A stretch of 41,224 nt of DNA, taken from an uncultured Bacteroidota bacterium (GTDB taxonomy: Bacteria; Bacteroidota; Bacteroidia; Chitinophagales; Chitinophagaceae). The DNA lies in NCBI GenBank assembly GCA_903899675.1, contig CAIUKP010000293.1, forward strand, positions 1 to 41,224. The letters are read 5' to 3'. A model generated the notes under the pieces. That model saw only the letters and a list, made by a program, of their open reading frames with translations, had not been told where the DNA came from and did not search any database. This document shows, in pieces, positions 4,273 to 36,557 of the stretch (its first letter is position 1; each line of letters opens with the position of its first letter). The position numbers and the translations under genes were made by a program.

Positions 4273-6168
4273 ATGAAAAAACTGCTTTTGATAGCCGGCG
4301 CAATGATGGTGCTGGTATGCGCATTACAGGCACAGCCTACCCAAAAACCGCCATTGCACGGAAAAAACTGGATGGCCATAACCGGAAAACCGCTGGCGGC
4401 CACTGCCGGATCGATCGTTTTTCAACAGGGCGGCAATGCGGTGGATGCGGCTTGTGCCATGCTGGCGGCTACCTGCACCATGTGGGACGTATTAAGCTGG
4501 GGCGGAGAAACGCAGGCATTGATTTATAATCCGAAAACCAAAAAAGTTATTGGCATCAATGCCCTCGGAGTTGCCCCCACTGGAGCAACCCCGGCATTTT
4601 TTAAAGAAAGGGGCTATCAGTTTCCGCCGGAGTATGGTCCGCTGGCAGCCATAACCCCCGGAACCGTTGGCGGAATTTGCCACATGCTACAGCAATATGG
4701 TACCATGAGTTTGCAAAAAGTATTGGCACCGGCCATGCAGCTGGCAGCGGGCTATCCCATAGAGGCGCAAACCGCCAACAGCATTGAGCGCGCAAAAGAC
4801 CGCATTAAGCAATGGCCTTACAGTAAAAAAGTCTTCTTGCCGCACCTGGGTGAAAAACGTGAAGCACCGGAAGCGGGAGAAATATTTGTGCAGCAGGATT
4901 TGCTGAACACCCTCACCAAGCTGGTGGAAGCGGAACAACAGGCACTTAAAAAAGGCAAATCTCGCATCGAGGCCATCCAAGCTGCTTGCGACCGATTTTA
5001 TAAAGGGGATGTTGCCGAAGAGTTTGTTCGGGGTAGTAAAGAGCAGGGTGGATTGATAACAATGCAAGATCTGGCCAATTGGAAAGTAAAAGAAGAAGAG
5101 CCTATGCACGTGAATTATCGTGGCGTAGAAGTATATAAATTATCTCAGTGGACGCAGGGGCCGATGTTATTACAATCGCTGAACATGCTGGAGCCGCTTG
5201 ATTTGAAGGCAATGGGGTATAATTCTCCGGAGTATATCCACACCATGTATCAGGTAATGAACATGACGTTTGCCGATCGCGATTTTTATTATGGAGATCC
5301 TGCCTACAATATTGGCCAACCGATGCAAGGGCTGTTGAGCAAAGACTATGCAAAAGCAAGACTGGCGCAAATGCGCAAGGATGGAAACGATCCGCAGGTG
5401 ATGCCGGGCGATCCGTATCCTTTCGAGGGCCGGAAAAATCCCTATAACCAATTATTGGAGGGCCGAAAAAAATTGACCGACAGCACAAACAAACGAAACT
5501 TTTTGCCGACACATGATAGTGGCGGAACGGCAATGAATAACGAGCGCGAAGCCTATATGGAGCGGCTTTGGCTAGGCACAACCAGCGTAGAGGCTGCCGA
5601 TAAAGATGGCTGGGTGGTTTCCATCACCCCCAGCGGCGGATGGGTGCCGGCAACCATTGCGGGCAATACGGGTGTGGGTATGAGTCAGCGCCTGCAGAGC
5701 TTTGTGCTGGATTCCGCCATCAACCCTTTTAATGTGGTGGCCCCCGGCAAACGCCCACGGGTTACTCTTACCCCTTCACTTGCTATGAAAAACGGGGAGC
5801 CTTATGTTGCGTTTGCTGTGCAGGGGGGTGACACACAGGATCAAAACCTGCTGCAGTTTTTGGTAAATATGGTAGACTTTGGCATGACGGTTCAACAAGC
5901 TACAGAGGCGGCAAATATCAACACCAATCAGCTATGGCTATCATTGGGAGGAACCAAACTAAGCGATCGCAGACCAAGGGCGGGCGAACTGCTGCTGGGT
6001 AACAAAACACCTCAAGCCACCCGAGATGCGCTTAAGAAAATGGGCTATACCATAAGCCTGGGCGACAGAACGAGTGGGCCTATCAATGCGATATTTCTCG
6101 ACAAAAAACACGGAACCCTTTGGGGCGGGTCGTCTAATAATGGCGAAGACTACGGAATTGGCTGGTAA
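4273..6168 (+). CDS. Gamma-glutamyltransferase family protein (secreted)
   Basis: Signal peptide MKKLLLIAGAMMVLVCALQAQ; GGNAVDAACAMLAA; GGETQALIYN; GLLSKDYAKARL; PRVTLTPSLAMKNGEPYVAFAVQGGDTQDQNLLQFLVNMVDFGM. Confidence 0.88.
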   Translation: MKKLLLIAGAMMVLVCALQAQPTQKPPLHGKNWMAITGKPLAATAGSIVFQQGGNAVDAACAMLAATCTMWDVLSWGGETQALIYNPKTKKVIGINALGVAPTGATPAFFKERGYQFPPEYGPLAAITPGTVGGICHMLQQYGTMSLQKVLAPAMQLAAGYPIEAQTANSIERAKDRIKQWPYSKKVFLPHLGEKREAPEAGEIFVQQDLLNTLTKLVEAEQQALKKGKSRIEAIQAACDRFYKGDVAEEFVRGSKEQGGLITMQDLANWKVKEEEPMHVNYRGVEVYKLSQWTQGPMLLQSLNMLEPLDLKAMGYNSPEYIHTMYQVMNMTFADRDFYYGDPAYNIGQPMQGLLSKDYAKARLAQMRKDGNDPQVMPGDPYPFEGRKNPYNQLLEGRKKLTDSTNKRNFLPTHDSGGTAMNNEREAYMERLWLGTTSVEAADKDGWVVSITPSGGWVPATIAGNTGVGMSQRLQSFVLDSAINPFNVVAPGKRPRVTLTPSLAMKNGEPYVAFAVQGGDTQDQNLLQFLVNMVDFGMTVQQATEAANINTNQLWLSLGGTKLSDRRPRAGELLLGNKTPQATRDALKKMGYTISLGDRTSGPINAIFLDKKHGTLWGGSSNNGEDYGIGW

Positions 6169-6207
6169 TCGGGGAAAAAACGGGTATAAATCAGGTATAA
6201 ACACGTG

Positions 6208-6236
6208 GGGGTTGGGTTAACCAACCCCTATTTTTG
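6208..6236 (+). terminator. Rho-independent-like terminator after the ggt-family gene
   Basis: GGGGTTGG - gttaa - CCAACCCC followed by TATTTTTG. Confidence 0.65.
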
Positions 6237-6251
6237 TACAATAAAGTAAAA

Positions 6252-6289
6252 ACTAATGACGTTAGTAAAAAAATACTAAAAAAATTAGT
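6252..6289. promoter_or_regulatory. Two tandem 15-bp dyads ACTAA-N5-TTAGT upstream of recA (candidate operator)
   Basis: ACTAATGACGTTAGT (6252-6266) and ACTAAAAAAATTAGT (6275-6289), starts 23 bp apart, ending 18 bp before a TATTTTTG element. Confidence 0.55.
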
Positions 6290-6307
6290 TTGTTTGAACA
6301 TTGTTTG

Positions 6308-6315
6308 TATTTTTG
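6308..6315 (+). promoter_or_regulatory. Candidate Bacteroidota -7 element of the recA promoter
   Basis: TATTTTTG matches TAnnTTTG. TTTG sequences lie upstream (6289-6292, 6293-6296), but the spacing is shorter than the usual ~19 bp. Confidence 0.5.
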
Positions 6316-6353
6316 TGGGAACGAACTACTAACCTCTATTAAAACGACACAAC

Positions 6354-7367
6354 ATGAGTAATGCAGAAAAACTGAAAGCGCTGAAGCTAACTATCGACAA
6401 GATAGACAAAGACTATGGCAAGGGAAGCGTGATGATGATGAACGAAAAAAGTCAAGAGCCGATGGAAGTTATTTCAACCGGATCCATTGGCCTGGATGTG
6501 GCTTTGGGTGTGGGTGGGCTTCCAAAAGGAAGAATTATCGAAATATATGGCCCGGAATCATCCGGTAAAACAACCATTGCCATACATGTTATTGCCGAGG
6601 CGCAGAAAAAGGGCGGCATGTGTGCGATTATTGATGCGGAGCACGCATTTGACAGCTCCTATGCCAAAAAGCTGGGGGTGGACGTAGACAACCTGTTGAT
6701 TTCACAGCCCGACTATGGAGAGCAGGCTCTGGAAATAGCCGATCGCCTGATTTTGTCCGGAGCATTGGATGTGGTGGTAATTGATTCGGTGGCAGCATTA
6801 GTTCCCAAAAGCGAACTTGAAGGAGAAATGGGCGACAGCAAAATGGGATTACACGCTCGTTTGATGAGTCAGGCGCTGCGTAAGCTTACGGCTACGATTA
6901 ATAAAACCAATACGGTATGTATATTCATTAACCAGTTGCGCGAAAAAATTGGTGTGATGTTTGGCAACCCCGAAACTACCACCGGAGGAAACGCACTTAA
7001 ATTTTATGCTTCCGTGCGCCTCGATATTCGTCGGATGACGCAGATCAAAGACGGCGATGCAGCAGTAGGCAACCACGTAAAAGTAAAAGTGGTAAAAAAT
7101 AAAGTGGCCCCTCCGTTCCGCGCGGCTGAATTCGATATTATTTTCGGCGAAGGCATCAGCAAACTGGGCGAAATCATCGACATGGGCGTAGAGCTGGGCA
7201 TTGTACAAAAAAGCGGTAGCTGGTTTAGCTATGAGGCGAACAAATTAGGTCAGGGACGAGATTCGGTAAAAACGTTATTACACGACAATCCCGAATTGGC
7301 CAACGAAATTGAAGCGAAGATTCGCGCAAAAGTTTCGGAGCAAAAAATTGCTGCCGCAGAAGCGTAA
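6354..7367 (+). CDS. recA: Recombinase RecA
   Basis: Walker [72 protein letters not shown]. Confidence 0.99.
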
Positions 7368-36449: not shown

Positions 36450-36557
36450 AGGCAGGCAAGCGCCTTCAGGAAATAAAATGCAGCTTCTACCCCTGCTTTA
36501 TGAGGATTTTTGTGGGATTGTACTACTTTCAACTTTTGCTAACCCTGTTAGAACCGT

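Follow-up and report, generated by a model that had tools for sequence, protein, structure and literature searches.

The two inverted repeats in the recA leader of this Chitinophagaceae genome are very probably tandem operators of the non-canonical LexA repressor of Bacteroidota, an HTH_3-Peptidase_S24 protein encoded on contig C408 of the same assembly. In this genome and its family, the assignment draws on the site sequences and their paired arrangement, both conserved before recA and lexA, and on a regulator gene that retains its catalytic residues. The original prediction had read the repeats as paired SOS-type operators before recA, a reading that the published motif, the LexA gene and the conservation strongly support. 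It had also called the motif uncharacterised and the regulator unknown, and both statements can now be replaced: CTAA-N5-TTAG has been published as one of two SOS operators of Bacteroidetes (Sanchez-Osuna et al., 2021, PMC8565304), and the repressor gene, with the same operator pair before its own start, is found on C408. With motif and regulator assigned, there is no need for an unknown repressor. As described in the main text of that paper, the operator is bound by a non-canonical LexA that combines a phage-repressor-like HTH (HTH_3) with Peptidase_S24; the Pontibacter actiniarum protein binds it in the recA promoter, according to EMSA and site-directed mutagenesis; in this related species, mitomycin induces SOS genes and DNA damage induces recA; and Chitinophagaceae is listed as one of the families whose CTAA-N5-TTAG regulon is large. 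The motif, the regulator class and its targets are already known. Our additions are modest and architectural, namely the pairing of operators two helical turns apart before recA, lexA, and umuDC, and the presence of the same pair on some insertion sequences.

In the window (the whole stretch of 41,224 nucleotides that was analysed), recA occupies positions 6354-7367 on the forward strand and encodes a protein of 337 aa (Pfam RecA, E 4e-138; NCBIfam recombinase RecA equivalog). Its leader comprises 185 bp (6169-6353) and follows the gamma-glutamyltranspeptidase gene at 4273-6168. The features originally predicted in this leader were all located. The two 15-bp dyads, to which no strand is assigned, share identical arms (ACTAA/TTAGT) and start 23 bp apart, or about two helix turns; they are the upstream candidate operator O2, ACTAATGACGTTAGT, at 6252-6266 (core CTAA-N5-TTAG at 6253-6265), and the main candidate operator O1, ACTAAAAAAATTAGT, at 6275-6289 (core at 6276-6288). 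O1 adjoins the putative -33 region of the recA promoter, and the recA ATG lies about 65 bp downstream of the dyads. The TAnnTTTG box predicted downstream of them is a perfect TATTTTTG at 6308-6315 on the forward strand, 32 bp past the first base of the O1 core, and constitutes the candidate -7 element of recA. A second such box with the same sequence is found upstream of the dyads (6229-6236, forward strand); it represents an alternative promoter or none, and its conservation was not found in the family consensus of recA leaders. The further ACTAA half-site is present at 6328-6332, downstream of the dyads; no partner was identified for it, and it has no support as an operator. Between the gamma-glutamyltranspeptidase gene and the dyads there is also an inverted repeat, GGGGTTGG-N5-CCAACCCC, at 6208-6228, followed by TATTTTTG, which could be the terminator of the gamma-glutamyltranspeptidase gene.

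Conservation of the dyad was assessed in leaders read from Chitinophagaceae (92 for recA and 70 for lexA), in which a perfect core dyad was sought within 300 bp of the start. It was present in 87/92 recA leaders and in 69/70 lexA leaders, versus 1/92 and 0/70 for the reversed-motif control, so that the conservation in relatives' recA leaders that had been proposed as a check is borne out. Among 80 named lexA loci that formed a second set, 78 had the dyad (control 0) and 67 were paired at 22-24 bp; the two lexA sets, which may share genomes, together contain 147 perfect dyads in 150 leaders. When a partner dyad was allowed up to two mismatches in eight positions, the leaders with a dyad had a partner at 22-24 bp in 71/87 cases for recA and 64/69 for lexA, compared with 4/87 and 5/69 at 28-30 bp. 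Tandem perfect pairs in 200 family genomes, tallied over spacings of 13-43, have their peak at 23 bp, and 49 of the 65 non-redundant pairs among the matches listed fall at 22-24. Outside the family, tandem pairs in a class-wide sample are rare and dispersed in spacing (7/36 at 22-24), and the 22-24 bp pairing rule is for this reason claimed for Chitinophagaceae only. The position equivalent to O2 in the recA leaders of relatives, which precedes the main dyad by 22-24 bp, is taken by a perfect or degenerate dyad, usually the degenerate form CCAA-N5-TTAG; the genome studied here is at the strong end of this range, since both of its recA dyads are perfect. Of the 87 recA leaders with a main dyad, 58 have a TAnnTTT box between +31 and +35, counted from that dyad. 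Two such boxes, at about +33 and about +50, are conserved in these leaders, which makes it uncertain where the recA promoter lies with respect to the dyads. A -7-like box between the two dyads is found in 43/69 lexA leaders versus 5/87 recA leaders.

The lambda CI repressor binds cooperatively to the adjacent operators OR1 and OR2, which are about 23-24 bp apart from centre to centre. By analogy, the fixed two-turn phasing of the dyads suggests contacts between neighbouring LexA dimers and hence cooperative, CI-like binding. An alternative explanation, which we regard as possible though rather doubtful, is that the dyads are indeed LexA operators, each of which acts alone, and that the 23-bp spacing reflects shared ancestry or a constraint imposed by promoter boxes. 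Binding in the published EMSA was lost when one motif was altered. It was unaffected by substitutions beyond the dyad arms, so that a lone dyad is probably enough for binding; the main text of the same paper mentions promoters with two or more sites, reports no cooperativity, and does not discuss a fixed inter-site distance, with supplementary Table S5 on multi-site promoters perhaps showing spacing in part (PMC8565304). Independent action would also fit those recA leaders of relatives in which a single dyad is recognisable, and the -7 box located between the dyads of lexA could by itself fix their spacing. However, such a box is mostly missing between the recA dyads, which nevertheless keep the 22-24 bp spacing across diverged spacers, and the same phase is seen before umuDC in this genome and on unrelated insertion sequences in relatives. 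We tentatively propose, with slightly less than even confidence, that the CI-derived LexA of Chitinophagaceae would act as cooperative pairs of dimers on operators 22-24 bp apart, in a family-wide recA/lexA design resembling the lambda right operator, and that a clade of IS1595 elements would have captured the operator pair, so that DNA damage would switch on their transposition.

In relatives within the family, the tandem CTAA-N5-TTAG pair also occurs directly before the ATG of the transposase gene (Pfam DDE_Tnp_IS1595) in one clade of IS1595-family insertion sequences, as observed at loci L330, L331, L341, L344-L346, L347, L348, L350, L351, and L359. Relative to the ATG, the dyads of these elements are placed at about -38 and about -15; their spacing is 23-24 bp, the second one is sometimes degenerate, and the layout mirrors the lexA promoter. 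The dyads are kept before nearly all transposases that share 44% identity or more with the copy in genome G199 across most of their sequence, and these come from several genera; IS1595 transposases with 41% identity or less to this copy are without the pair, as is the partial match L361. Some of the IS1595 copies contain stop codons. The pair occurs nine or more times in genome G124, and the copies examined are located at contig ends. No pair-bearing IS1595 copy was found in the genome from which the window comes. The sequence pattern of this clade points to candidate SOS-controlled insertion sequences and, with them, SOS-controlled transposition.

The LexA-like regulator is encoded at 5676-6428 of contig C408 and comprises 251 aa, with two domains above the Pfam cut-off, HTH_3 (PF01381, E 5e-13) and Peptidase_S24 (PF00717, E 8e-8), which make it a COG2932-like repressor. 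The AAAG cleavage motif (99-102) with its Ala-Gly bond, and the Ser/Lys dyad formed by S138 (in GDSM) and K177 (in VYKR), are invariant in nine homologues. The Pfam search gave only HTH_3/Cro-CI-type domains and no winged-helix LexA domain PF01726, and the protein is not matched by TIGR00498 lexA. Two perfect dyads precede the gene, at C408:5638 and 5661, 23 bp apart, and the second ends 2 bp short of the lexA ATG. Together with the two perfect cores (6253 and 6276) upstream of recA, a canonical SOS gene, these features place the regulator in the CTAA-N5-TTAG class and predict, at the sequence level, that its gene is autoregulated through this motif. Further HTH regulators exist in any genome, and the dyads might in principle serve another damage-sensing repressor or activator, such as a different Cro/CI-type HTH protein or a WYL-type activator; this is very unlikely, given that the promoters of the S24 repressor itself and of umuDC bear the same paired motif, the signature expected of autoregulation, that the only Peptidase_S24 genes found in the genome are those of LexA (C408) and UmuD (C281), and that the orthologous group binds the motif in EMSA (PMC8565304).

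The third paired SOS promoter of the genome precedes the umuDC operon on contig C281 (L066:2124-3888), where umuD is followed by umuC and a perfect dyad is accompanied by a dyad with one mismatch 23 bp away. The dinB-like gene on contig C299 has no convincing site, and the confirmed regulon is small on this account. Several other dyads were noted in the genome. A single dyad, CTAAATATTTTAG, with TATTTTG after it, occurs at L058:1035-1047 (contig C332). It lies some 230 bp downstream of a gene for an SOS-response-associated peptidase (SRAP), where a 104-aa ORF lacking any Pfam match starts. On contig C244 (L053:1972-2030), two perfect dyads lie 46 bp (2 x 23) apart before a gene whose 159-aa product matches LEA_2 weakly; this arrangement could be due to chance, and no support as operators was found for this pair or for the dyad before gpsA (C47). 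In the window itself, the core dyad CTAACCCTGTTAG at 36539-36551, which is intergenic and precedes a glycosyltransferase gene, has neither a partner nor an SOS function and is probably a chance occurrence.

The single dyad is not enriched in the genome, a draft of 2.79 Mb in 413 contigs that represents an incomplete assembly: CTAA-N5-TTAG occurs 35 times, mostly within genes, versus 125 occurrences of the reversed control pattern. Genome-wide frequency, which the original prediction had named as a check, accordingly came out against it, although such a count is ill suited to testing a regulon that comprises few operons. The full 15-mer occurs five times in the draft genome, and the perfect copies on contigs C2 and C372 are inside genes without an SOS link. 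In the window, no full ACTAA-N5-TTAGT dyad was found besides the recA pair, and matches with up to two mismatches are at the chance level (18 versus 17.7 expected). A genome-wide scan for 23-bp tandem pairs gave 10 for the motif and 38 for the control pattern; motif pairs with up to two mismatches are found only before recA, lexA, and umuDC, and the remaining seven matches have three mismatches each. The signal is therefore one of position and pairing, not of frequency. Chance expectation for the recA leader was obtained by simulating this 185-bp sequence 400,000 times with a first-order Markov model. One or more core dyads appeared in 0.3% of the runs and two or more in a fraction of about 1e-5, and none of the 400,000 had a pair spaced by 22-24 bp. 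AT-richness, raised in the original prediction as a possible source of part of the similarity, does not account for the pair, since simulated leaders virtually never produced it, and the conservation in the family speaks against it as well. That the pair is a chance outcome of AT-rich leader DNA, as single dyads at or below the chance level in this genome might suggest, is thus exceedingly improbable in view of the simulated leaders and of the dyads kept before recA in nearly all relatives.

In the mechanism that we propose, the strain's own LexA would bind the recA dyads, and in undamaged cells its dimers would most likely occupy both of them, on one face of the helix as the 23-bp spacing would allow. 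The bound repressor would block the neighbouring recA promoter, whose exact location is putatively the -33/-7 region with TATTTTTG at 6308, and exclude RNA polymerase. Upon DNA damage, RecA filaments formed on single-stranded DNA would prompt self-cleavage of the repressor at its Ala-Gly bond, and this cleavage would free recA, lexA, and umuDC.

The 2021 discovery thereby gains a quantitative rule, a spacing of 22-24 bp between paired operators before recA and lexA across a single family, through which cooperative CI-like SOS repression can be tested directly. On insertion sequences, where it was apparently captured, the same pair would tie DNA damage to transposition in Bacteroidota. Compared with the canonical LexA/SOS system of E. 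coli, the system described here likewise relies on an S24 repressor at palindromes before recA, lexA, and umuDC, with relief by RecA-triggered cleavage, here proposed; it differs in the motif, which is unlike CTGT-N8-ACAG, and in the DNA-binding domain, which is HTH_3 instead of the winged helix PF01726. With lambda CI on OR1/OR2 it shares a CI-type HTH plus S24 domain and adjacent operators at a similar spacing, whereas the regulator considered here is a host chromosomal SOS repressor and not part of a prophage switch, and its cooperativity is suggested by the phasing. The closest match is the non-canonical LexA group as the 2021 paper presents it in its main text (PMC8565304), a group which has the same operator core and N5 spacer, an HTH_3 plus S24 regulator with the Ala-Gly site and Ser/Lys residues, recA, the regulator's own gene and umuDC as targets, and Chitinophagaceae among its listed families; what sets the present system apart from that description is that a pair of operators 22-24 bp apart is the rule before recA and lexA of the family.
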